From: an uncultured cyanobacterium
GTDB taxonomy: Bacteria > Cyanobacteriota > Vampirovibrionia > Gastranaerophilales > Gastranaerophilaceae
NCBI GenBank assembly: GCA_945487905.1
Contig: CALYTW010000002.1
Location: 1-64,000 of the forward strand
Reading direction: 5' to 3'
DNA: 64,000 nt
A program made the translations under genes and the position numbers. Positions 19,641 through 59,377 of the stretch are shown piece by piece. Position 1 is the first letter of the stretch, and each line of letters starts with the position of its first letter. The notes under the pieces are model-generated. The model was not told the origin of the DNA, searched no databases, and worked only from the letters and a program-made list of their open reading frames with translations.

Positions 19641-20453
19641 TCACGTCAAACAATTTTTTGCTATTTCTATAAAATTCGCTATATATTTGATTTTTGGCGT
19701 GTTTTTATTATAAAAAACGTACAAAGCCGGAGCTTTTGCCTGCATTATTTCAGGTCTCAAAATATAGTATTCAAAAGAACGGGATATTAATTCCGAAACT
19801 GAATTGTAATATCGGTTTAATCTTGATATTTTTGAAGTTATTCGTTTTAACATTCTGCGTTTTGATTGTATCATTAAATATTTTTTACAAACATCACTCA
19901 TTTTAGGAAAACTTTTATCTATATCATCTATAGATAAGATTCTAAACCCGAAACCTTCAATAACTTTAACTCTGTCATATTTTAAAAGATACTTTGCAGG
20001 CTTTTGTATTTCGTTTTCTATAATCTTAAAAGGCTCGCTTATCTTAAAATCGGGGTAAATATTCTTAATAAATTTAGATAATTCGGAAATTTCCGATTTT
20101 AAAGTCTCTTTTTGATGAAACAAGGGTTTTATTGAGCATTTAGGTATAGAATCTACCGTCAGATTTATTAAATCGTCTTCATACAGATTGTAATCACTTC
20201 CGAATAAAAATTCCGCCGACTTTAAAGTCTTGTCATATTTATAGTGAACATAGTGAGCAAATTCATGCACAAGAACCCTCAAGATTTCGGTTTCATTCAA
20301 TCCGTTTGAAATATCAATTCTATAGTTATTTTTACCCACAACTTTAAAAAAGCCCTTGTTTCCACGGGCATTGTTTCTGCCTATATTAACCTCTACCCCC
20401 TGAGATTCAATATATTCAACTAATTTTGTGATGCAGTCTCTTTCGCAAGCCAT
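19641..20453 (-). CDS. Putative zinc metallopeptidase (HExxH-type)
   Basis: RVLVHEFAHYVHYKYDKT; probable start at MACERD (20453), ORF to 20474. Confidence 0.65.
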   Translation of the reverse strand: MACERDCITKLVEYIESQGVEVNIGRNNARGNKGFFKVVGKNNYRIDISNGLNETEILRVLVHEFAHYVHYKYDKTLKSAEFLFGSDYNLYEDDLINLTVDSIPKCSIKPLFHQKETLKSEISELSKFIKNIYPDFKISEPFKIIENEIQKPAKYLLKYDRVKVIEGFGFRILSIDDIDKSFPKMSDVCKKYLMIQSKRRMLKRITSKISRLNRYYNSVSELISRSFEYYILRPEIMQAKAPALYVFYNKNTPKIKYIANFIEIAKNCLT

Positions 20454-20743
20454 TTTAAATAATCTTCCGAACAATCCACTATCGGCAGGGCAATAATTTC
20501 CGGCACACTGTATGTGTGCATGTCTTCAATTACAAGCTTTATCTTGCCATAATTAGAACGTCTCGTTTTTATCATCATTAATATTTCTTTTTCTTCACAA
20601 ATTTCGCCTTCCCAAGAAAATATGGATTTTACATTTTCAACCATTGAAACACACGCTGCCAAACGATGTTTCATCAAAACAGCCGTTATTTCTTTTGCTA
20701 ATTTTTTATTCGGAACTGTACAATAAATAACGATAATATCCAT
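20420..20743 (-). CDS. cutA: CutA1 divalent cation tolerance protein
   Basis: VYCTVPNKKLAKEI-type N-terminus, RLAACVSMV, SIFSWEGEI, HTYSVPEIIALPI. Confidence 0.92.
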   Translation of the reverse strand: MDIIVIYCTVPNKKLAKEITAVLMKHRLAACVSMVENVKSIFSWEGEICEEKEILMMIKTRRSNYGKIKLVIEDMHTYSVPEIIALPIVDCSEDYLKWLAKETASQN

Positions 20744-20754
20744 CTTAACTCCTT

Positions 20755-22140
20755 TTATAACTCGAAAATCTTGTCCGGATTAAGTATATTTTGCGGATCA
20801 AAAATATTCTTAATCATTTTCATATATTCAATTGCATTACCATCAACAGTATCTTTCATATAAAATTTCTTTTCAAGACCTACACCGTGTTCTGCAGATA
20901 TCGTTCCGCCTAATAAAACAGCGGTTTTATATATTTCTGCTTTTGCATCAGTACAGTTCTTAAATTCATTTTCATTATCTAAATTCAAAGCAAATTGCGG
21001 GTGTATATTCCCGTCTCCTGCATGTCCTACCAAACACATTTTTAAATTATACTTTTTAGCAGTTTTCTGACAAACATCTGCCATTTTTGCCAAATTTTCT
21101 CTCGGAACTATTATATCATCTGTAACAACATCCGGTGCGAGTCTTGCAGCTGCGGCAAAAGCTGTTCTTCTTGCTTTCCAAACAGTATCTGCATTATTTT
21201 CATCCGATATTTTGATTTCCGATGCACCTGATTGCTCTAGAACATTAACTGCTGATTCCAACTGATAATCCATTGACGCTCGGTATCCATCTAACATTAG
21301 CAAAAGCAAGCACTCTTTATCCGTTTTCATACCGCATTTTGCAAAATCTTCAACAGCCTTTATTGCATTTTTATCCATAAAATCAATTGCCGACGGAAAA
21401 ATATTGCTGCCAATTATTTTATTTACGGCAAGCATGCCTGAATTTAAAGTATCAAAATACGCTGAAATCGCATATTTCGTTTCCGGTTTAGGAATAAGCT
21501 TCAATGTCGCCTCAACTATAACGGCAAGAGTTCCTTCACTCCCAACCATTAATTGTGCAAGATGGTAGCCAACAGAGTCTTTTGCTGTATTTGCCCCCAA
21601 TGTCATAAGTCTGCCGTCTGCTGTAACAACTTTCAGCGACAAAACATAATCCTTTGTTGTTCCGTATTTAAAACCCATTGCCCCACCTGACGATTGTGCT
21701 ATTGCCCCCCCGATTGTTGACACTGCATAATTAGAAGGATCCGGCGGGAAAAAAAGACCTATTTTTTCTGTCTCTTGTTTCAATTTGCCTAAAACGACTC
21801 CGGGTTGAACTGTAGCTGTCATGTTCGCAGAATCTATTTCCAAAATTTTATCCATTTTAGAAAAGTTTAGCACTATTCCGCCCTTATTACTGACACATGC
21901 ACCAACCATATTTGTTCCTGCACCGCGTGATATTACCGGAATTTTATGCTCATTAGCATATTTAAGGATACGTTGTACATCCTCAATCGTTTCAGCAAAA
22001 ACAACCACATCTGGAATAACATCCGGCTTTACTAAATTTGAGGAATCTTGGGCATAACAATAACATTCTTCCTCGGAAGTAAGAATATTATTGTGATTTA
22101 AAAATGATTTCATTTCTTGGATTTTATTTTTCAACAACAT
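20755..22140 (-). CDS. glcD: FAD-linked oxidase, glycolate oxidase subunit GlcD / D-lactate dehydrogenase family
   Basis: VISRGAGTNMVGACVS, GGAIAQSSGGAMGFKYG, GHAGDGNIHPQ, GTISAEHGVGLEK. Confidence 0.85.
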   Translation of the reverse strand: MLLKNKIQEMKSFLNHNNILTSEEECYCYAQDSSNLVKPDVIPDVVVFAETIEDVQRILKYANEHKIPVISRGAGTNMVGACVSNKGGIVLNFSKMDKILEIDSANMTATVQPGVVLGKLKQETEKIGLFFPPDPSNYAVSTIGGAIAQSSGGAMGFKYGTTKDYVLSLKVVTADGRLMTLGANTAKDSVGYHLAQLMVGSEGTLAVIVEATLKLIPKPETKYAISAYFDTLNSGMLAVNKIIGSNIFPSAIDFMDKNAIKAVEDFAKCGMKTDKECLLLLMLDGYRASMDYQLESAVNVLEQSGASEIKISDENNADTVWKARRTAFAAAARLAPDVVTDDIIVPRENLAKMADVCQKTAKKYNLKMCLVGHAGDGNIHPQFALNLDNENEFKNCTDAKAEIYKTAVLLGGTISAEHGVGLEKKFYMKDTVDGNAIEYMKMIKNIFDPQNILNPDKIFEL

Positions 22141-25100
22141 GTGATGCTATTTTTTCAATACTTTTATTTAATTTCGCTATTTGCCTGTCCATCCCGCCAA
22201 CTTTTTTAGTCAACTGGGCAGTATCTTTTTCATCTAACATATCAACCATTTTTTTCATTTTTGATTCTAAAGAATCAATTTTTTCCTGTTGAGTTGTTAT
22301 TTTATCTCCAATGGCGGCAAGAAATCTGTTCAAAGTTTCTTCCATTGGTTTCATATCAAACTTATCGTTTTTGCTATTTATTGTTGTTTCAACAATGATT
22401 TTGTCTAACTTTGCTTCCAGTGCCGATATTTTCTTTGCCTGTTTATCAAAAACATTTCCCAGCGCTTCGATAAGTTCAACATTGTCCGAATTATCTTCAG
22501 ATTCAGCTTTCATATCCTGAAGCATAACCTTTATCTGACCGATATCATCCAAGGTATCGACTTTATTTGATATTTCATTAATCTGATTACCAGCATTGTC
22601 AACCCACTCAGCCAGATACTCAAATACCTCGTTGAATACTTGATTATTTTTCGCACCATTTTGTATCATTGTATTGATGGCATTCAATTTTGAGTTAATC
22701 TTGTCCATCCCTGACTCCTGGGCAAAATTTCTTGTCCTTTCATCCAAGTCATTAATAACAAGTTTAAAATCATGAAGATTGTCTTTCAAAGTCTTGTATG
22801 ATTCATCCGAAGCCAAAATAAGCTTGTTTGTTCTTGTACTGATACTTACAATGTCTTCTGTTAAACTGTCAAAAGATTTTTTGTCGGGCAAATCTTCTTT
22901 GATAGATTCTACCAGTTTATACACACCTTCAGTAGATTCCATTAATTTATCAAAATCTCCACTGTAATTGTCCGTATTGTCCTTCATTTCTTTAAGAACA
23001 ATGCGCAAATTAGCTATATCTGATTCCAAATCCTGCAAGCTGTATATATAATCAACATCTCCTTCTGATGATATTATGCTTGTAATTTTATCATTTATCA
23101 GGCTGATTTCTTTTCTTACAGAATCAATCCTGTCATCTGATTTTGTAATTATATGGCTCAGAATCTTAATTAATTCATCATGTTTTTCCTGAATAAAATC
23201 AAGTATTTCTTCCTGTTCTGTTACAAAAGATATTTGGTTGAAAATATTCAAAAATTGAGTAATAATATCAGACTTAGTTTCTTTCAACGCCGTTCCGATA
23301 ATTTCTTCTACATTCTGTGCCTCTAACTGTTCGGAAAGGTTATCTGCTGTTGCTAGCAACAAATTATTTACACTCTCAAAACCTTTATTAATCTTTTCGT
23401 GTGAATCAAGGTTTTCAAGCTTTTCTGATAACTGATTCAATTTATCAACTATCGTATATTTTACCATTGTATCAAGCTCTGCTACATCCGGAAGATTCGA
23501 TGCACAGATATCATTAATATCTTGAATGTAGGACATTTGTTCTTTTATCAAAGATTCCAACGATGTAATCTGTTTGTTTATTGATGCCTGAAAAGCTTCA
23601 TCAAAAGATTTATTTGATATTTGCGAACGTAAATGTTCAAAGCAATCATTCAATTGTCTTATTTCGCTGTTTGTACTGTCAGAAGTCTGTTTGATTGTTT
23701 CAATTAAGTTGTTTATTTTGTTTTCGATTTCATTCTTAGTATCGTGAAAATCCGATAAAACATTGTCTATAGAAGCCTTAACTTCTTCAAATAGCGCATT
23801 GTGCTTATTTGAAACAAGTTTTATTTCTTCGTATTTATCTACTACCGTATCTACAAACTTCTTATCAAATAATGCCAGTTTGTCTTCAACGCTCTGATTT
23901 CCGCCGGATATCATTTCTGTGATTTTTGCAGAAAATTCGCCTATAAAAGTTCCGATTTTTTCGTTTACTCTGTCTGCCGCAGAATTTACAAGAATTTCAT
24001 TCGCTACACGAAAATCAGAAATCTCACCTTTAAACACATCAACACTTAGCATTTTGTTCAAATCAGAAATTGTATTATCCAAAATAGAAGTAATGTCTAT
24101 TTTTAGGTTATCTAACTTTTCCGAAATCATGGAAGAATCAGTCTTAACATCCAAATAAGATTTTAAATCTTCAATATTATTATAAATTTGGTTTGCTACT
24201 ACTGTTTCTATGCCGGTTGTGACCTGTATAACTATATCCTGCTGAGATTTTTTAACAAAATCAAAGTGATCTATAAGCTCCCTTATAACAGCATCCGTTT
24301 CTTTTTCTATATCTTCAGAAACTGCGTTTAATTTTTGCTGTATCACATTTGATATAAAATCTCTTATTTCAACAACCGACTGCTTACCCAATTCAATCTG
24401 TTCCAAAAGCTTGTCTGTTGAAGATTCTATTGTTTTCACCTCGTTTACGGATGTTTCCGCTGTTGTATTCATTATTTGCTGTAATCTGTCATTTGTATCT
24501 GAAATAAATCCTTTCAGAAGATCATTAGAATCCTCTACAGAACCTGTAAGCGATGCTATCTCAGCCCTTATCGCATTTTCTGCATCCAAATGTTCCCCGG
24601 ATATTGCATTTATGGTATCAAATTTTGATGTTATCTTTTCCGAAATTGATTCCAGCATATTATTTATTTCATCAGCTCTCGCTCCGGTTTCCTGAACTTG
24701 AATATCAAGAACGGAATCGACATACTTAGTCATATCATCAAGCTGGGCTTTAAGATTTTGAGTTAAAATTTCATTATTTGATTCTAATTCTTTTGTAAAA
24801 TCATCCAATCTGTCTTTTAAGGCGTTATAGTCTATTTCTGCAATCTTAATATTTTCATCTAATATATTTTTTAACCTGTCAGAAATTTCGTCAATTTGGC
24901 GAATGTTGCTCTCTGCTTGATCTGCCCATACAGTCTTCATTACGGAATTTATATCCGATATACGTTCCTGTAGATAAGATGACTGTGTCTGAGCTTTTTC
25001 CGTAAGCACATCAAAAGTTTCTTCAATTTTTGTTTTATAATCTTCCAGTTTTTGCGTTAAATTTTCATCAATTTTTTCAGATATATTTCTGTATTCATCA

Positions 25101-28100
25101 TTAATCTTATCTACAAGTGTTTGTTCGGATTTGTCATTCAGAATTGTCATCTGTGAAATCAGCGATTCAAAATTACTTTCAATAATTGAAAACTGCCTGG
25201 TTAAATCACTGTCTATATTATCGTCTATTTTACTCAATGTTAGTTTTACGGTTTCAAAACAATCTATTATAAGATTTGTTTTTGCCGAGATATCGTCAAT
25301 AGTTTTGTTGTTTAATGTTTGAGCAAGATCTCTTAATCCGTCAAAGGAATCAAGTATCTGTGTTAAGGCGTTATTTCTTGTATTTCTTGACTCATCGGAT
25401 ATTGTATCAATCTTTGATTTAAGAATTTCATAACACTCATTTACTCTTGATATAACATAATTATCGCTGTTTACATTTTCTCCTGCATACGCAGTTATTT
25501 GCTCTTTTAAACTGTTTATATGTTCAAAAATTTCGTTCAGACCCAATTTTCTGCCTTCGGTAATTCCGTCATACATATCTCTCATTGAGTTATCAAGACT
25601 TATTAAATCCGAACTTATTTTATTGAAAGCTTCTTTTCTCGCAGAACTTTCTTCCGAAAGTGTATTTGCAATCACAGTTTTCAAACTGGTATAATTTTCT
25701 TCAAAATTATTCAAAATATCCTCTTTGGAAGAAGAACTTTTTGAAGAAATATCGGATATGAGCGTTTTTACTTCATCTAATCTCGCAGTCAATGATTCCA
25801 GTGCAATACTTCTTGATTCGTTATTCGAATTTGTTAGTTCATTAATTGAATTCTTCAGCTCTTTTAATGAATCATTCAGATTGTTGACCACTGTTTCTCT
25901 TGAGGATGAGCTTGATGAAGACAAAACTTCAATCTGAGATTTTATATTTTCAAAATTTGCAAGAAGCATATCCATAGATTTTTCTCTTGACTCAATATTG
26001 AGAGCAGATTTTTCTTCAATTTTGTTTTTTATATTTTCAAAATTAGCTAATATAGTATTTAGAGCATTCTTTCTTTCGTCTCCGCTTAACAATGAAAGCT
26101 CTTGAACTGACGATTTTACGCCATTTATTGTTTCTATTAAATTATCAAGCGCTAATACTCTGGACTCTGTATTTTCTGAAAAAGAATTTTTAATTAAAGA
26201 TTTTAATTCCGTCAAATCTCCAAGCAAAGCTTCCAAGGCAGTATTTCTTGATGCTGTGTTTTCGGAATTATTACTTTCTAATTGAGTTTTTACACTTTCT
26301 AAAGAAGCATTAAGTTCTTGCAAATTCTTGTTATTAAGATTTTCTATCATAAACCTGAATTCGTTAACTTTATCTGCACTTTCACATGTAAATTCATTCT
26401 TGAACTCTGTCACACGTTCAAGTAAAGCATTTCTCAATGCAGACAATTTGCTATCGAATTCGGCATTTATATCATTGGCAGCATTTACAAGCTTTTCAAA
26501 CCTTCCGGCATTATCCAGATTGTTAACATTAATAAGTTCTCTTAAATCTTCATATGTGTTTCTTACTTCAACCAGTTTGTCATAAGAATTTCTTATATCT
26601 TTTCTTAAATTTTCCGTGCTTAATGTTACAATTTCGTTAATTTTTGCATATTGCTTTGCGTTATCGGATTCCAAATCTTTAAGATTGTTTTCAACCTGTA
26701 CTCGTATTATATCAACTATATCTCTTACATTTTCTACATAGTTAAGATTTGTCTCTTTTAGCGTATTGGCAATTCCATCTATCTTTTTATCCAGTTCCTC
26801 TGTAGGAAACTCTTTTGATTCACTTACATAAGAAATTACGTCAACAAGAGAATCAGAAATTTTTTCCATTGTTTCTTTTACATAGCTCAATGCCGAAGCC
26901 TGAGTTTTCTTAAATTCATCTTCCACGCTGTCTAATTTGCTTATTAAAAGCTCGTATTTGCCATACAAATCTTTTGTAATATTTTCCGAAAGTTCGTTTG
27001 ATGCAGAATCAATTATCGTATTTAAATCCTGTTTTGATGCATAAATATCTGCTCTTAAATCCTTAACCGTATCGACAAAATTCAATGCAAGAATACTGTC
27101 GACAGAACCCCTCAATGTTTCAAACATCCTTGTCATGTTTGAAATTTCAACAACAGATGAATCCATCTTGTAATCAAGAACACTTGAAAGATTTTTGATA
27201 TTTTCCACCTGCTCGCACAATTTAGCGGATGCTTCGGCGGTTGTAAATTCTTGAGTTTCAAGAGATTCTTTAAGAGCTGTTTCAAACAAATTTAACCTGT
27301 CTGATATATTTGAAAACATTGCATTGTTTGCTGATACATCATTTTCGTCAATTTGGGAAACTATTCTTTTTAACTCTGCAATATTTTCAAATACAGTTCC
27401 AAAACTGCTTTCACATATTGCAGAAAGTTCTGTTTGCGACTGGCTCAGTCTTGTGCTTAAAGAATCCGCACTCAGAGTAATGTTATTTATGATCTTATTA
27501 AGATTGGATTCACTTAAATTTGCATATTTTTCTGCACTGCTGTCTATATAAGCTTTTATACCGGATTCTTTTGAGTCAATCGATGCTAAGACCGAATCAA
27601 AATGGGTATTTAAGTTCAGAGAGCGAATATTTTCCAAAATAGATGAAATGCTGTCTGACGTTAAACTTATATTCTCCTTTAAATTAGAAGTTGTTTCAAT
27701 TATGTTATCTAAAACTGTCGATAAAGATGTCTTAAATTCGTCAAAAGCAGTATCGTCTTTTATTTCTTTAAGCTTTGCTTCAAGTCTGCCCAAATTATCA
27801 ATTACAGCTTGAGTATTTTGACTCTCAATATCTTCCAGTCCCGTCTTCAAGCCGGCAATTATACTTACCGAAGCATCTATTTTATCGGCAAGCACATCTA
27901 TCTTAGCATATTTGTCCCCTATTTCCTCTATGTTTTCGTTAAGACTTCGGTTCAAGAGCCTAATTTCATCAATATTTTTACTTGTCTGCTCAAAGTCCGA
28001 CTTTGTAGCAATATCTTTCAATGAATTTTCTACAGTCTCGGTTTTTTTATCTAAAAGCTGAATCGCCGATAAAAGAGCGTTTGAAGACATTTCAAGTCCT

Positions 28101-28720
28101 TGAAAATTATCTGCAAATCTGTCCAGATACTCTGTCTTATCTATGCTCGACAAAGTTTTTGCAAGTGTCTTGAAATTATCGTTTAAACTTATAACAATAG
28201 AATCAAAACCATTGTTAAGTCTTTCTAAATCAGGTTTTAAAAGTGTTATGTTTTTTATAATATCTTTCTTCTGAGAATCATCGGAACGTATGGCATCCAA
28301 ACGCAAAGTTATGTCCGTCAGTGATTCTTTTTGGGCAACAACTTCTCTTGAAAATACCGAAAGATTTGTTGCTACTATGTCATACCATTCTTTAAATTCT
28401 GAGGCTTTTGGCAATTGATTGCTATTTTTAAGAAGGTTTGAGAACAAGGCTTCTATTGCACCAAACTTGGATAATAGAACACTGTGGCGTTCTTCAAGGC
28501 TTTGTTTTAACTCTGTTAAAAATATTTTTATTAAGTCAATATCTTCTTCTGTGTTAATTTTTTCAAGCTTAGCATTTATACCGCTTAAAAGCTTATCAAC
28601 ATCCGAAGTATTCAAAATGCCCTGCGCTCTTATTGAATTTAAAAGCGTTTTTATTGTATCAAAGTTCTCATTCATCTCATTCAAATTATCAATATCTGCC
28701 ATAAACCCACTATCCCACAT
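22124..28720 (-). CDS. Giant 2198-aa predicted alpha-helical/coiled-coil protein
   Basis: Single long ORF, Ser/Asn/Glu/Lys/Leu rich, 29-aa periodicity in the middle. Confidence 0.8.
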   Translation of the reverse strand: MWDSGFMADIDNLNEMNENFDTIKTLLNSIRAQGILNTSDVDKLLSGINAKLEKINTEEDIDLIKIFLTELKQSLEERHSVLLSKFGAIEALFSNLLKNSNQLPKASEFKEWYDIVATNLSVFSREVVAQKESLTDITLRLDAIRSDDSQKKDIIKNITLLKPDLERLNNGFDSIVISLNDNFKTLAKTLSSIDKTEYLDRFADNFQGLEMSSNALLSAIQLLDKKTETVENSLKDIATKSDFEQTSKNIDEIRLLNRSLNENIEEIGDKYAKIDVLADKIDASVSIIAGLKTGLEDIESQNTQAVIDNLGRLEAKLKEIKDDTAFDEFKTSLSTVLDNIIETTSNLKENISLTSDSISSILENIRSLNLNTHFDSVLASIDSKESGIKAYIDSSAEKYANLSESNLNKIINNITLSADSLSTRLSQSQTELSAICESSFGTVFENIAELKRIVSQIDENDVSANNAMFSNISDRLNLFETALKESLETQEFTTAEASAKLCEQVENIKNLSSVLDYKMDSSVVEISNMTRMFETLRGSVDSILALNFVDTVKDLRADIYASKQDLNTIIDSASNELSENITKDLYGKYELLISKLDSVEDEFKKTQASALSYVKETMEKISDSLVDVISYVSESKEFPTEELDKKIDGIANTLKETNLNYVENVRDIVDIIRVQVENNLKDLESDNAKQYAKINEIVTLSTENLRKDIRNSYDKLVEVRNTYEDLRELINVNNLDNAGRFEKLVNAANDINAEFDSKLSALRNALLERVTEFKNEFTCESADKVNEFRFMIENLNNKNLQELNASLESVKTQLESNNSENTASRNTALEALLGDLTELKSLIKNSFSENTESRVLALDNLIETINGVKSSVQELSLLSGDERKNALNTILANFENIKNKIEEKSALNIESREKSMDMLLANFENIKSQIEVLSSSSSSSRETVVNNLNDSLKELKNSINELTNSNNESRSIALESLTARLDEVKTLISDISSKSSSSKEDILNNFEENYTSLKTVIANTLSEESSARKEAFNKISSDLISLDNSMRDMYDGITEGRKLGLNEIFEHINSLKEQITAYAGENVNSDNYVISRVNECYEILKSKIDTISDESRNTRNNALTQILDSFDGLRDLAQTLNNKTIDDISAKTNLIIDCFETVKLTLSKIDDNIDSDLTRQFSIIESNFESLISQMTILNDKSEQTLVDKINDEYRNISEKIDENLTQKLEDYKTKIEETFDVLTEKAQTQSSYLQERISDINSVMKTVWADQAESNIRQIDEISDRLKNILDENIKIAEIDYNALKDRLDDFTKELESNNEILTQNLKAQLDDMTKYVDSVLDIQVQETGARADEINNMLESISEKITSKFDTINAISGEHLDAENAIRAEIASLTGSVEDSNDLLKGFISDTNDRLQQIMNTTAETSVNEVKTIESSTDKLLEQIELGKQSVVEIRDFISNVIQQKLNAVSEDIEKETDAVIRELIDHFDFVKKSQQDIVIQVTTGIETVVANQIYNNIEDLKSYLDVKTDSSMISEKLDNLKIDITSILDNTISDLNKMLSVDVFKGEISDFRVANEILVNSAADRVNEKIGTFIGEFSAKITEMISGGNQSVEDKLALFDKKFVDTVVDKYEEIKLVSNKHNALFEEVKASIDNVLSDFHDTKNEIENKINNLIETIKQTSDSTNSEIRQLNDCFEHLRSQISNKSFDEAFQASINKQITSLESLIKEQMSYIQDINDICASNLPDVAELDTMVKYTIVDKLNQLSEKLENLDSHEKINKGFESVNNLLLATADNLSEQLEAQNVEEIIGTALKETKSDIITQFLNIFNQISFVTEQEEILDFIQEKHDELIKILSHIITKSDDRIDSVRKEISLINDKITSIISSEGDVDYIYSLQDLESDIANLRIVLKEMKDNTDNYSGDFDKLMESTEGVYKLVESIKEDLPDKKSFDSLTEDIVSISTRTNKLILASDESYKTLKDNLHDFKLVINDLDERTRNFAQESGMDKINSKLNAINTMIQNGAKNNQVFNEVFEYLAEWVDNAGNQINEISNKVDTLDDIGQIKVMLQDMKAESEDNSDNVELIEALGNVFDKQAKKISALEAKLDKIIVETTINSKNDKFDMKPMEETLNRFLAAIGDKITTQQEKIDSLESKMKKMVDMLDEKDTAQLTKKVGGMDRQIAKLNKSIEKIASHVVEK
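25469..26251 (-). repeat. Core of tandem 29-residue repeat (9 units of 87 nt) inside the giant gene
   Basis: Units SRNTALEALLGDLTELKSLIKNSFSENTE ... GRKLGLNEIFEHINSLKEQITAYAGENVN; unit 1 Ser codon at 26251, unit 9 at 25555, difference 8 x 87. Confidence 0.85.
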
Positions 28721-28801: not shown

Positions 28802-29383
28802 ATGAATTACATTTTTTTCTTTTTGATAGGGATTTCTATTTTAGCCGGAGTTATTAACGGAACGCTGGGAGAACTAACAACTGCTATGCTGGATTCATGC
28901 AATACTGCCGTTAAAGTAGCATTTTCATTAATTGGAATCATGGCATTCTGGCTCGGAATAATGCGTATAGCAGAAAAATCCGGGTTGGTAAACCTTATTT
29001 CAAAACTTCTGTTCCCGATTGCTAAACTCCTTTTTAAGGATATAAAGAAGGATTCTCCCGCCATAGGAGATATTACGATGAGCATAAGCGCTAATGCATT
29101 AGGACTGACCAATGCCGCAACACCAATCGGTTTAAAAGTTATGAAAGAGCTTCAGGAAGAAAATCCCGATAAAGACAGCGCTACTGACAGCATGTGTATG
29201 TTCCTCGGGATGAATACCGCAGGTTTTCAACTTGTTCCTGCAACTGTTATAGCTATTCTAACAGGATTGGGATGCAATAATCCTTCAAAAATAATTATAC
29301 CTACTTTGATTGTAACAACTATTGCTTTTATGACAGCCATTTTGACTGCACTGATTCTGAAAAAAATATGGAGGGATAACTGA
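28802..29383 (+). CDS. spmA: Spore maturation protein A-like (nucleoside-recognition/gate domain)
   Basis: MNYIFFFLIGISILAGVINGTLGELTTAMLDSCNTAVKVA, NALGLTNAATPIGLKVM. Confidence 0.85.
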   Translation: MNYIFFFLIGISILAGVINGTLGELTTAMLDSCNTAVKVAFSLIGIMAFWLGIMRIAEKSGLVNLISKLLFPIAKLLFKDIKKDSPAIGDITMSISANALGLTNAATPIGLKVMKELQEENPDKDSATDSMCMFLGMNTAGFQLVPATVIAILTGLGCNNPSKIIIPTLIVTTIAFMTAILTALILKKIWRDN

Positions 29384-48733: not shown

Positions 48734-49558
48734 ATGCGAGAATTTGACTTTTATATAGTTCCTACACCAATTGGGAACATACAGGATATTACACTTAGGG
48801 CGATTAACGTCTTAAAATCGGTTGATATTATTGCCTGCGAAGATACAAGAACCACCCAAAAACTTCTCAAACATTATGAGATAAAAACAAAATGTATTTC
48901 TTACCATAAATACAATGAAAAAGAGCGTGTTGATTTCTTTTTGAACACATTGAAAGAAGGGAAAAAAATTGCACTTGTATCAGATGCAGGAACGCCAATG
49001 ATTTGTGATCCGGGAGCTGTAATTCTTCCGGAACTAATTAAAAACGGTTATTCTGTTACTGCTCTTCCCGGAGCGTGTGCAGTTACGACATTTTTATCCC
49101 AAATTCCCAGAGAAAATGAAGAATTTATTTTTATAGGTTTTATTCCGAGAAAAGGAAAACAAATTGAAGAGTTGGCAACAAAATATTCCTCACAAAATCT
49201 TGTTTTTTATGATTCGCCGGAAAGAATTCTTAAAACGATTGAAGTAATCAAATTCTGCCGAAAAAACGCGAAAATTTCGCTTGGACGAGAGCTTTCAAAA
49301 CTTTTTGAAGAAGTTGTTACTGGAAGTACGGAGGAGATTTTAGAGCATTTTAAAGAGGGTATAAAAGGCGAAATTGTTTGCATGGTTTATGCCGAAAGAG
49401 ACAGAGATTCAGCGGAAATTTTACCAAAAATAAAAGCATTAAAAACAAAGGGCTATAAAGACAAAGATATCTCGGTAATTTTATCAACGTTGTATAAATA
49501 CAACAAAAATGATGTTTATGACTTGGCATTGACTGAATTACCAGGTTCGTCATCCTGA
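48734..49558 (+). CDS. rsmI: 16S rRNA (cytidine 2'-O)-methyltransferase
   Basis: FYIVPTPIGNIQDITLRAI, CEDTRTTQKLLKHY, SDAGTPMICDPG. Confidence 0.95.
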   Translation: MREFDFYIVPTPIGNIQDITLRAINVLKSVDIIACEDTRTTQKLLKHYEIKTKCISYHKYNEKERVDFFLNTLKEGKKIALVSDAGTPMICDPGAVILPELIKNGYSVTALPGACAVTTFLSQIPRENEEFIFIGFIPRKGKQIEELATKYSSQNLVFYDSPERILKTIEVIKFCRKNAKISLGRELSKLFEEVVTGSTEEILEHFKEGIKGEIVCMVYAERDRDSAEILPKIKALKTKGYKDKDISVILSTLYKYNKNDVYDLALTELPGSSS

Positions 49559-49860
49559 GGTTTTCTTGTCATCCTGAGGGAGCGAAACGACCGAAGGATC
49601 CCTTAAACAATTTGTCATCCTGAGGGCTTTTTCCTGTCATCCTGAGGGAGCGAAGCGACCGAAGGATCCCTTTAACAATTTGTCATCCTGAGGGCTTTTT
49701 CCTGTCATCCTGAGGGAGCGAAACGACCGAAGGATCTCTTTAAAATTTAACGAGATTCTTCGCTTCGCTCAGAATGACGGGAAGTTAACGAGATTCTTCG
49801 GGGGTAAATAAAACTTCGCTCAGAATGACGTGGAGAAGCCTCAGAATGACGTGGAGGAAT
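49549..49860. repeat. Array of GTCATCCTGAGG.../...CAGAATGAC palindromic repeat units (left array)
   Basis: Repeated GTCATCCTGAGGGAGCGAA(A/G)CGACCGAAGGATC units plus opposite-orientation GAGATTCTTCG...AGAATGAC units. Confidence 0.9.
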
Positions 49861-49889
49861 CAGAATAATCAATTTTGGATAATTTTCGA

Positions 49890-50064: not shown

Positions 50065-50143
50065 AAATATGTTATATTCCCTAAAGTTTACGAAAAAATA
50101 GCCGATATATAGAATATATAAATAGATGAATTTTGGAGGGAAT

Positions 50144-51694
50144 ATGTCAACCGTAAACATGGCACAAGCTTTATCATCTCCGTCATACGCAAAATCGTTA
50201 TGGATTGATTATTATAAAAACGGGAATACAAAAGGTATAACGGCAGAAGAGATTGGTCAAATTGAAGCACAATGGAAAAGTAAACTTGCTTCGTGGAAAG
50301 CGAGTGTTGCGACTGATGACAACAAATATATAATTGTTGATTCAAGCTGGGATGCAGATATTGAAGCAGGTAAACAAGAAGGCAGAGACCTTACGGGATA
50401 TGAAGGTTCGAAAGGACAAAAAGGTTGGCAAATTACACGCAGCGTCGGAGATGGGGTCGTGTCAGTCGGAGGTGCTGTTTGTAGAGTAGTCTGTAAGGAT
50501 GCTATGCAAAAAGCCAGAGAATGGATGGCTAAAAGCGCCATAGAAAAAATCGGGGAAGAAGCCAGCGAAGACGTTTTAAAGAATGCCTTAGCAACTAGCT
50601 TAGTTAAGATCGATTATTCAAAGTTACAACCAGATCAAATAGCCTCTGAGACAAAAAAGGCCATTGATGATGCCACGAAATCCGCCCAACCAAAGGCCGA
50701 TCAAGCTGCCAAAGAAGCAAAAGATAAGGCAGCAAAAGATACCGGCGTTTTGATTGCTTGTGCTTTTGATGCACTTACCGCAGGTGCCTATTATATAAAG
50801 AAACCCAACAAAACACAACACGAAGCTATTATGAAGATAAACGAAGATTTGCCGAACCAGCAGGAAAAGACAATGGAAACAAGTGCATATATCGATACAA
50901 TGGACGATGAGGTTATGACCCTGAATGATGATGCCAATGGGCATGTAGAGGATGCAAATGAAACTATGGCAGAAAACAAAACCGAGTATGATTTCTATCG
51001 ACAATATATAGATAATCTTGAACATAGAAAAACCTCCGGAGAAGCAATCAGTCAAGAAGAAGCCGATATGTACAAAGAGGCGATTTTGTATATGACAGAG
51101 TCAAGCGAAAATGTTCTAATGACAGAAGCAGAAGGTACAGAAGCCGTCAATGAAATATACGACACAATGGGCGAATATCAGCAAGGCTATGACGAATCTG
51201 CTGAAAACATTGCAAATGTCGAAGGCATTACCACATACGCTGAAAATATGGATAAATCTACCAGAACTATGTGTTATGTTGAAGCCGGAGCGCAAAGTCT
51301 TAATGGATTACTTGCCGGAAAAGATGCGTTTAAAGCCGGACAACTGGCTATTGAGACGGGCTGGTGCGGATTGGGTATAGCATACGGTGGTGCAGCTATT
51401 CTTGCAGGTGGAGCAGCGGTATCAGACGGATTCGCCGCTAAAGAGCAGTTCACATGGGCTGGCGAAATCGGAGGCGAAATCGAAAACAGAAAAGCTACTC
51501 AGGAAATGAACGATGCAACTATGCAAAACTATAATGAAAAAGTAGACAACTATGCTGCTAATATGGAAGATGTCGAAGGTCTGGAAATGGAAGTACCTGA
51601 TGACATAGAAGTACCTACAGAGACTGAAATTCCTGCTACAACTCCTGGAAACGAAACAGATGATGAAGAAAACAAGAAAAAAAATAAAAAATAA
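50144..51694 (+). CDS. Lineage-specific hypothetical protein, possibly secreted or membrane-active
   Basis: GGAGGG ribosome-binding site before ATG at 50144 (ORF track 50126); Ala/Gly-rich hydrophobic stretch, acidic C-terminus. Confidence 0.65.
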   Translation: MSTVNMAQALSSPSYAKSLWIDYYKNGNTKGITAEEIGQIEAQWKSKLASWKASVATDDNKYIIVDSSWDADIEAGKQEGRDLTGYEGSKGQKGWQITRSVGDGVVSVGGAVCRVVCKDAMQKAREWMAKSAIEKIGEEASEDVLKNALATSLVKIDYSKLQPDQIASETKKAIDDATKSAQPKADQAAKEAKDKAAKDTGVLIACAFDALTAGAYYIKKPNKTQHEAIMKINEDLPNQQEKTMETSAYIDTMDDEVMTLNDDANGHVEDANETMAENKTEYDFYRQYIDNLEHRKTSGEAISQEEADMYKEAILYMTESSENVLMTEAEGTEAVNEIYDTMGEYQQGYDESAENIANVEGITTYAENMDKSTRTMCYVEAGAQSLNGLLAGKDAFKAGQLAIETGWCGLGIAYGGAAILAGGAAVSDGFAAKEQFTWAGEIGGEIENRKATQEMNDATMQNYNEKVDNYAANMEDVEGLEMEVPDDIEVPTETEIPATTPGNETDDEENKKKNKK

Positions 51695-51736: not shown

Positions 51737-52000
51737 CGTCATCCTGAGGGGTTTTTCTGTCATCCTGAGGGTTTTTTGCCATCCTGAGGGAGTGAAACGA
51801 CCGAAGGATCTCTTTAACAATTTGTCATCCTGAAGGAGCAAAGCGACCGAAGGATCTCTTTAAAAGTTTACGAGATTCTTCGGCTAAAGCCTCAGAATGA
51901 CGGGAAGTTAACGAGATTCTTCGGGGGTAAATAAAACTTCGCTCAGCATGACGTATTTTGTCATCCTGAAGGAGCTAAGCGACCGAAGGATCCCTTTAAA
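51737..52000. repeat. Right array of the same palindromic repeat units
   Basis: GTCATCCTGAGG/GTCATCCTGAAGGAG... units and inverted units; 64-nt segment shared with left array. Confidence 0.9.
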
Positions 52001-56440: not shown

Positions 56441-59377
56441 TTAACTAAGTATTTCACCAAATGGAGATTGTTGTTTTTTCGGCTTGTCGGCTAAACCCTG
56501 TTTCAATTTGTAAATATGATATTCCACTGTATTTTCTTTCAGATTTCCTTCCATTTTTTGCTGTTGGCGTCTTTCTGCTACTGACATATTACGTAAGTTT
56601 TCTTTTTCCTGAGCTTTTTCCATGTTCCGCTTAATTTGCATTAAGAATGAACTGTCACTTGCACCCTCAGTACGGCCAAACATTGTTTTAAAGAGATTGA
56701 AGTTTGCCAATCTGCCATCTAACAAACCTTTTACCAGTGCTTCATAAGAGTTATTAGCAGATTGTATTGCTTTATTCAAATTCAATTGAGTATCATTTGG
56801 TACAATACCGTGTTTTTTCATAATATTAGACGTTAATTTCAAAAGATTATCTGTTGTCATAACTTCAAGAGAAGTTGTTGTATCAGTAAAACATGCTTTT
56901 AATTGGTCTGAAATGATTTTTGTAGCTTCTTCTTTTGTCCGACCGCCCAAAGCTTCTCCTTCAACCCCTTGCATTACGTATTCAGCAATCTTCTGATAGT
57001 TGCCGTGTTCTATATATGATGAAAGGTTGAGCAGGCTTATAGATTGTTCTTTGCTGAGTTCAATTACATTACCTGTATCAATAAGAGTAAATATGCCATG
57101 GTTTTTACGATTTACTTTACCTGTAACATTTGTCCAAATTTCCTGTGCTTTATTAGGTTTAGACATATTTTTCAACGCATCTATATCTATAAAGATGTTA
57201 CCCGGGTGAATATCCCCATGAACAACCTTGCCGTCCACACCAATTCTGTTATATTGTTCAACAAGTACTTGTTGATACTCACTAATCAGATTTTTGATAT
57301 CTTCCGGTTCAAGTTTTATATTTCCGTGCGACGGAGTTTTTGCTTCTATTTTGTCAATAAATTCGTTAATTTTGGCAAGTTTTTCTTCTTTTGTCAATGT
57401 GTAATCCTTAATTATAGCTTGCAACGGAGAGCCCTTCATTTGCATTTCAGCTAAGTCTGCACCAATTGCACCATTTAGATTATCTAAGATGTTACCCGCG
57501 CCATCATTTATCGTTTTTAGCAGATTTTCTCTGTATGAATATGCTTCGTTCAAGTTCATTAATGATTCAAGACTTATACCTTGTGCACGTTCCATTACAT
57601 AGGCACTATTATCATCGCTGACCTTAATACCTTTTACAACCTTTGCATATTTTGTCTCTTTAGCAAGCTTTTCTGCCGCACGCATTTCATTTGCAAGATC
57701 AATTTCCTTTAAAACACCTTCCATAAGGTTATCAATGTTTTGCTTATAAATATTCTTTTCAGCATCTGTATAAGGTTTGTTTGTTGCCGGATTGATTGTT
57801 AATTTATCAATTATTGCCTTAAATGCCTCCGCATCTCTTCTGATTTTGTCCGCATTAATGCCTTCTTTGATAACTTTTATACAAACTTCTTTTCCGTCTT
57901 TACCTTTTGCAAAGTAAGTCTCAGCAACAGTACCAACACCCAAGCAGTAGTGATCTTTAACTAATGTATATTCGCCTTCTCCAAATGCTTTATCAATATA
58001 TTGCTGAGCTTTGTCGATTGTTCTTGTAGGTTTGAGATCTTCTTTCAAGACTCTTGCAAGAGAAGAACCGTCATTAGATATCTGTTTCATTTTTGCTGCA
58101 AAGAAGTTCGTATCAATTAATTCTTGTGCCAAGGCTTGTAATTCCTCTTCTGACAAGGCTTCATAATTCCATCTATTCAATGATGCATCTTTTTCAATTA
58201 TCTTTGATATAGCCTTATCATTTAACAAGATTTCGCTTAGTTCTTCATAATTGGACTTTCCGTTAAACATATTTTCAGTAAATCTTGTATTTTCTAATTT
58301 TTTAACAGCTTGTTTGGAATATTTTTCAAACACTGACATCCTATGAGTCTTGATTGCAACCGGAATACCGACACCAAGGGCAAGAGTTGCACCTAAAATA
58401 CCGTTATTCTTGATGTTTTCAAAATATTTAGAGAACGATTTGTCTTCATCTGTGTGATTTCCGATAAAGAATCTGTTCAAGCTGTTAATTGCAAAGTACA
58501 GAGGAACACCGACTATACCGCCGACAAGGCCTAAAAGCGGTACTGCTGCACCATTGATTGCACCTGAACAGAAGTTTCTAAAGTTTGCAGCACGTTTATC
58601 TCTTCTGTCTTGCTTACGAACTTGGCTGTACATCGACTTATCATAAGGTGTTTTTGCTCCGTTAAATTCATTCTTATCCGTAACAAATTCTTTAGAACCA
58701 ATTCTGTTAATTATTCCGAATAACAACTTAGCTGTACCGGCACCTGCAAAGGTAAATAAAGCAAGCTTTAAATTTACCCCCTTTCTGCTCTTAAATGCTT
58801 CTACCAATTGGGATTCAGAAAGTTTCAAACCTTTATTTTTTTTGCTAAATAAAGATAGCATGTCTTGCGAAGATTTTTCTCCTTTTTCCTTAACAATTCC
58901 ATGTTGTTTGCGTAAATATGCTTTTGGCGCCTCTTCTACTATCTGTTTATTAGTGTACAGATATGTTGTAATAGCACCTGTCATAGATATTGCATCACCT
59001 ACGACCTGTGCGGAATTAGCCTGTGAACTTCTGTATTTTTGTATTTTTTCTCTTGCCTGTTCTTCCGAAATTTCTCCGTTTTCATATTTCTTCACAATTT
59101 CTTCAGTTTTCTTGGAACCCAAGCCTAAGCCTGTAAGGTTCTTTATACCGTTATATAATCTTTCAACAAGCCCGTTTTTCTTATGCTGAGAAACAAACTC
59201 ATCCCTTACGGACAATTGAGACTGAACAGGCATTTGTTGATATCCATACGGATATTGCGGCTGAGTGTATCCGCCATTTACCCCTGTATTTACCCCTGCA
59301 TAAGGAGCTCCTTGTTGATACTGAGTTTCATAATTTTGATTAATTTCCGGCATAGAATCCCCCAATAATTTTTCCAT
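56441..59377 (-). CDS. ABC1/AarF/UbiB-like kinase-fold protein with long membrane-associated N-terminal extension
   Basis: GVGTVAETYFAKGKDGKEVCIKVIKEG, EIDLANEMRAAEKL, YVMERAQGISLESLM, VVHGDIHPGNIFID. Confidence 0.75.
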   Translation of the reverse strand: MEKLLGDSMPEINQNYETQYQQGAPYAGVNTGVNGGYTQPQYPYGYQQMPVQSQLSVRDEFVSQHKKNGLVERLYNGIKNLTGLGLGSKKTEEIVKKYENGEISEEQAREKIQKYRSSQANSAQVVGDAISMTGAITTYLYTNKQIVEEAPKAYLRKQHGIVKEKGEKSSQDMLSLFSKKNKGLKLSESQLVEAFKSRKGVNLKLALFTFAGAGTAKLLFGIINRIGSKEFVTDKNEFNGAKTPYDKSMYSQVRKQDRRDKRAANFRNFCSGAINGAAVPLLGLVGGIVGVPLYFAINSLNRFFIGNHTDEDKSFSKYFENIKNNGILGATLALGVGIPVAIKTHRMSVFEKYSKQAVKKLENTRFTENMFNGKSNYEELSEILLNDKAISKIIEKDASLNRWNYEALSEEELQALAQELIDTNFFAAKMKQISNDGSSLARVLKEDLKPTRTIDKAQQYIDKAFGEGEYTLVKDHYCLGVGTVAETYFAKGKDGKEVCIKVIKEGINADKIRRDAEAFKAIIDKLTINPATNKPYTDAEKNIYKQNIDNLMEGVLKEIDLANEMRAAEKLAKETKYAKVVKGIKVSDDNSAYVMERAQGISLESLMNLNEAYSYRENLLKTINDGAGNILDNLNGAIGADLAEMQMKGSPLQAIIKDYTLTKEEKLAKINEFIDKIEAKTPSHGNIKLEPEDIKNLISEYQQVLVEQYNRIGVDGKVVHGDIHPGNIFIDIDALKNMSKPNKAQEIWTNVTGKVNRKNHGIFTLIDTGNVIELSKEQSISLLNLSSYIEHGNYQKIAEYVMQGVEGEALGGRTKEEATKIISDQLKACFTDTTTSLEVMTTDNLLKLTSNIMKKHGIVPNDTQLNLNKAIQSANNSYEALVKGLLDGRLANFNLFKTMFGRTEGASDSSFLMQIKRNMEKAQEKENLRNMSVAERRQQQKMEGNLKENTVEYHIYKLKQGLADKPKKQQSPFGEILS

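Follow-up and report, generated by a model that had tools for sequence, protein, structure and literature searches.

The window analysed here, a 64,000-nt stretch of DNA from a non-photosynthetic gut cyanobacterium, contains a giant gene (22124..28720, minus strand) in whose 2198-residue product a 29-residue unit is repeated 14 times without a gap, forming an array (aa 795-1200; 25121..26338, minus strand). Comparison with relatives, in which the single long frame is also kept, revealed that this tract has changed in length in steps of whole turns of the helix, in many cases of complete 29-residue units. We lean modestly towards the view that these units form a segmented coiled coil within the central rod of a giant, single-copy protein of the cytoplasm, and that this protein acts as a structural rod, scaffold or ruler.

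The 29-residue array within the giant protein

The array was delimited by autocorrelation, shuffling and a cyclic profile. BLOSUM autocorrelation over aa 795-1085 gave z scores of 11.2, 10.5, 10.0 and 9.7 at lags 29, 58, 87 and 116, while the next-best lag reached only 4.2. The first-pass annotation had proposed an exact 29-residue period and had staked it on an autocorrelation peak at this lag, which is indeed present. The array score (1.07) lies about 10 SD above that of 5000 shuffles keeping the hydrophobic/polar pattern (0.27±0.08, maximum 0.56), indicating that the repeat exceeds helix periodicity or amphipathicity. In addition, a cyclic 29-column profile tracked 14.2 units with zero register shifts (510 bits vs a shuffled maximum of 33), a result of which the absence of shifts is the sole informative part, as the profile was trained on the units that it scores.

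The nine clearest units (aa 824-1084; 25469..26251, minus strand) lie exactly where the first-pass annotation had placed them, and the further units that it had suspected, one upstream and four downstream, complete the 14. Hydrophobic residues occupy positions 6, 9, 13, 16 and 20 in no fewer than 8 of the 9 central units and position 23 in 10 of all 14; 8 of the 9 retain R2 and K17, positions 24-29 are rich in Ser, Asn and Glu, and Gly is present in several of the Ser/Asn-rich inter-unit segments. The 3-4-3-4-3 spacing of the core is that of a heptad stripe, with a polar fourth heptad and one residue left over after 28, so that 29 can be described as four heptads and a skip residue, or just as well as 7+11+11. 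In a coiled coil, each unit would thus contribute a core at positions 6, 9, 13, 16, 20 and 23 followed by a polar heptad and the skip residue, and eight turns per 29 residues would give a nearly straight rod. Provided that the helix is continuous, one unit would span ~4.3 nm and the 14 units ~60 nm.

At the DNA level the units share on average 41% identity, against an in-frame background of 31%, and TRF detected no tandem array in the array region. Together these data indicate that the array is old, and a recent DNA tandem duplication was rejected as its origin in the window. Elsewhere in the window, tandem repeats of the 'GTCATCCTGAGGG...CGACCGAAGGATCCCTTTAACAA' type are found at 49549-49748, 49820-49866 and 51738-51863 (68-nt unit, three copies, plus shorter copies flanking both sides of the 50126-51694 ORF), and a 24-nt tandem repeat in two copies is located at 58122-58170, within a 978-aa ORF (56441-59377, minus strand).

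The whole protein (P0001) has a calculated mass of 247 kDa and a pI of 4.5, counted from the MAD start, and contains 6 Pro and 7 Cys. It had been suggested that all of it might be built from about 76 such units, but only about 14 true 29-mers are present: outside the array lag 29 falls from z 8.8 to 3.4, and outside aa 795-1209 lags 7, 11 and 18 dominate the autocorrelation. The proposed value of 3.625 residues per turn stands for the array, and a similar period (3.62-3.67) extends over aa ~300-1650, where windowed Fourier analysis of the window protein gave mostly 3.61-3.70; it does not stand for the first 300 residues (3.41-3.47) nor for aa ~1650 to ~2100 (3.42-3.51). When relatives were pooled, the N-terminal 300 residues peaked at 3.43-3.47 and the middle at 3.62-3.65, and the C-terminal heptad-like stretch of the window protein was not confirmed. 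The helical pitch is therefore common to the whole middle rod, of which the 29-mers make up one part. Judged from the sequence, a little-supercoiled rod would be consistent with the helical period of aa ~300-1650.

Length changes of the rod in relatives

Array length in relatives was gauged from two conserved anchors, the left one at aa 741-790 (26351..26500, minus strand) and the right one at aa 1161-1220 (25061..25240, minus strand), which includes DLTRQFSIIESNFESLISQ and overlaps the last array units. Anchor-to-anchor spacing in 47 members of the genus (L092 and L098, with no clear left anchor, were left out) took 16 values that fall into just six residue classes modulo 29, namely 0 (14 members), 22 (21), 18 (7), 25 (3), 3 (1) and 4 (1). 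Class 0 comprises tracts of 4, 5, 6, 8, 10 and 14 units, the window having the longest, and the other classes are offset from it by 7, 11, 4 or 3 residues, that is, by about whole turns. Mapped by unit-cost parsimony onto one tree, built from the conserved ends with FastTree, the spacings required 19 length changes; at 3.625 residues per turn, every one deviates from a whole number of turns by no more than 0.24 turn. Eight, among them all five in the window's clade, were exact multiples of 29 (binomial P 1e-7 vs 1/29), and single-unit gains (4 to 5 units) were found. This quantised change suggests an adjustable molecular spacer or scaffold.

Indels along the gene point in the same direction. 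Between disjoint close pairs they favour sizes of 4, 7, 11, 18, 29 and 58, and the test of their phase gave z 5.2 with all gaps; under strict flanks, which leave the aligner less freedom over gap size, the effect was modest (n=76, p ~0.004-0.015) and not significant at sizes of at least 12. Only disjoint pairs were used for this test, as opposed to overlapping nearest pairs, which gave a stronger-looking result. Furthermore, among all lags, lag 29 showed the largest excess over pattern-preserving shuffles within the rest of the genus (z 27) and ranked third across other genera.

These data bear on whether 29 has any meaning of its own. It could be one near-whole-turn length among others, with any in-frame, in-phase duplication of the rod tolerated and no function linked to length, a neutral scenario that we regard as rather unlikely. 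It would account for the strong divergence of the array units, for the span of family lengths (771-2870 aa) and for the many duplication lengths in relatives, since rods elsewhere in the family hold recent tandem arrays, visible in the DNA, with units of 18, 19, 24, 25, 26, 29, 30, 58, 59, 62 and 63 aa. It does not readily account for the retention of R2 and K17, or for exact multiples of 29 far outnumbering equally in-phase lengths both among all changes (8/19) and in the window's clade (5/5). This dominance of 29 suggests that the unit itself matters, for example for lateral register between rods.

According to the coiled-coil reading that we favour, the length of the rod between its conserved ends would be set by the number of units together with other in-phase insertions (4, 7 and 11 residues). 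The rod could hold the two ends apart, or it could bundle into filaments; the conserved N- and C-terminal ends would likely be functional heads, and the rod would set the distance between them or the repeat of an assembly.

Fold predictions and homology searches

The giant protein has no transmembrane segment (Kyte-Doolittle 19-residue mean, maximum 1.05), and 116 of 119 family members lack a strongly hydrophobic, transmembrane-like 19-residue window. In addition, the full protein contains no domain at curated cut-off. A cytoplasmic structural rod is thus the simplest reading, within which we infer a continuous helix that may pair as a parallel dimer.

AlphaFold2 modelled six array units (two sequences) with low confidence (pLDDT 49, pTM 0.32). 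An alignment of array orthologues proved too gapped for structure prediction. In the six-unit model the helices (2-21, 28-52, 58-82, 87-112, 115-140 and 145-171) correspond to one per unit, with a break in every unit at the Ser-rich segments. Each unit could accordingly consist of a single amphipathic helix, 20-26 residues long, and a polar turn, with the units folding back into helical bundles or a solenoid. The Ser/Asn/Gly-rich segments at every unit boundary would suit such an arrangement, as would the Pfam match of the array to a helical-bundle family (V-SNARE N-terminus), which at 37 bits exceeds the cut-off of 25.9. However, this match persists at 28.8 bits after within-column permutation and therefore reflects the period and not homology, and Foldseek with the low-confidence model returned nothing at E ≤ 0.001. 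Moreover, the tract has accommodated gains of an odd number of units as well as in-phase changes of 4, 7 and 11 residues, the one-unit gains counting against an up-down helix hairpin fold, which would tolerate them poorly, and the identical helical period continues for more than 1000 residues beyond the 29-mer tract. For these reasons we consider a bundle or solenoid unlikely.

An amphipathic helix coating a membrane or inclusion in the manner of apolipoproteins or perilipins, with the 29-mer as a membrane-binding eight-turn repeat, is suggested by Pfam matches to apolipoprotein A1/A4/E (PF01442; 65.6 bits at aa 1196-1369 and 23.9 bits on the array). The former falls short of the curated cut-off (90 bits), arrays permuted within columns match as well (17.5 bits), and the stripe of hydrophobic residues is narrow, covering the a/d positions with few additional ones, which makes this idea very improbable, and PF01442 was rejected. 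The same applied to an SMC-like protein (archaea-specific SMC-related protein, ASRP, 28.2 bits vs a cut-off of 300), with no match to an SMC head domain in the giant protein, and to the SpiroCoCo giant coiled coils (SpiroCoCo_C 18.6 bits vs 125; SpiroCoCo_N 20.0 vs 75). When the C-terminus and the array were each used for profile searches of the PDB, coiled-coil or helical chains alone were retrieved, at E 0.004 or worse, and these matches were taken as period-driven. AlphaFold2 predicted the conserved C-terminus (nine sequences) as helix at pLDDT 44, with no usable fold.

Distribution, genomic context and known systems

Of the 58 genomes sampled from the genus, 57 contain a relative of the giant gene; in the family one is present in 127 of 146 genomes, covering 37 of 41 genera. 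Weak matches extend to a small number of further families within the order, and the wider class yielded just two marginal matches beyond the family; named relatives are MAGs from gut or faeces. The gene is found once in its genome. Across 119 members the protein ranges from 771 to 2870 aa, which would correspond to 114-426 nm if the helix were continuous, and the N-terminal ~420 aa and C-terminal ~390 aa are conserved around a variable middle rod. In the window protein, the conserved N-terminal region (aa 1-420; 27461..28720, minus strand), heptad-like over its first 300 aa, gave profile matches in other genera with E down to 1e-125, and the most conserved C-terminal region (aa 1810-2198; 22127..23293, minus strand), predicted to be all helix, shows 63-85% identity across the genus.

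Gene order is also kept in the genus: spmB-spmA (divergent), the giant gene, glcD, cutA and a further conserved downstream gene. In the window, the upstream divergent gene is a Gate-domain (SpmA-like) gene (28802..29383, plus strand), the downstream partner is a GlcD-like FAD-linked oxidase (20755..22140, minus strand), whose longest frame shares 17 nt with the end of the giant gene, and cutA follows (20420..20743, minus strand). glcD is likewise found downstream of the giant gene in many further genera, one of them with a protein of only ~770-805 aa. Some relatives (G103, G130, G167, G087, G115 and G179) have 1-3 stop codons within the match and are possibly pseudogenes or assembly errors. 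L075, a protein from a different genus, shows a larger internal duplication, with the beginning of the conserved C-terminal module (LKxDIITQxxxxxNQISF) present three times, at aa ~1144, ~1553 and ~1831. Recent tandem expansions of the gene (79-96% DNA match; 59-, 62-, 63- and 24-residue units) are seen in other species, in L033 (aa 1239-1448), L083 (aa 604-848) and L086 (aa 667-824 and 2295-2483).

With regard to the cytoskeleton, FtsZ is present in the window's genome (G000), no DivIVA match was found there, and its sole MreB_Mbl match is DnaK. A search for true MreB in 37 genomes of the genus and order (G000 plus 36) gave essentially just 60-82 bit matches, mostly in frames of ~610-640 aa, with identity read for the window-genome hit alone. 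A coiled-coil skeleton would fit such a lineage, the giant protein being a candidate only. That it forms a lineage-specific skeleton, a cytoplasmic ruler or shape scaffold tuned over evolutionary time in whole 29-residue units in an order of gut bacteria where no MreB was found, is a speculative and improbable extension. In the libraries searched, the protein family has neither a curated name nor a relative of solved structure, although nearly all complete genomes from a common gut family carry it. It offers a natural series in the same genomic place (4-14 units in the genus, 771-2870 aa in the family), which makes it testable how strictly a coiled-coil rod keeps helical phase when its length changes and whether the length of a bacterial rod is selected as a ruler.

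SF-assemblin and beta-giardin are eukaryotic proteins of ~30 kDa with a rod of ~240-250 residues that assemble into 2-nm protofilaments. Weber et al. reportedly described the SF-assemblin repeat in 1993 as four heptads plus a skip residue. In these proteins of protist striated fibres, the rod is predicted to be a segmented coiled coil with a 29-residue repeat (PMC6070942). The array shares this period, the 6/9/13/16/20/23 core and the one-residue skip, whereas the giant protein is bacterial and far longer (2198 aa; orthologues 771-2870 aa), and the SF-assemblin model PF06705 was rejected at 11.5 bits on the array (cut-off 30.6). SF-assemblin is thus the best structural parallel and not a homologue.

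Among bacterial proteins, FilP/Scy and crescentin are long coiled coils with non-heptad (hendecad) stretches, and rod lengths vary strongly among FilP/Scy relatives (PMC9858780). These IF-like rods resemble the giant family in their non-heptad period and, for FilP/Scy, in variable rod length, but the unit is 11 there and 29 in the giant protein, in which the DivIVA-like motif that is N-terminal in FilP/Scy had no match. Within the same phylum, Fm7001, Slr7083 and HmpF are coiled-coil-rich proteins, some of them filament-forming (PMC7002697), although by description these candidates have ~280-650 aa. Lastly, in HMW2 of Mycoplasma pneumoniae, an engineered coiled-coil length alters the length of the organelle (PMC8191905). 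HMW2 is likewise a giant bacterial coiled-coil rod, one whose length sets that of a cell structure, and although organelle and lineage differ it is, by analogy, the best functional parallel, from which we propose that the giant protein may act as an HMW2-type ruler.
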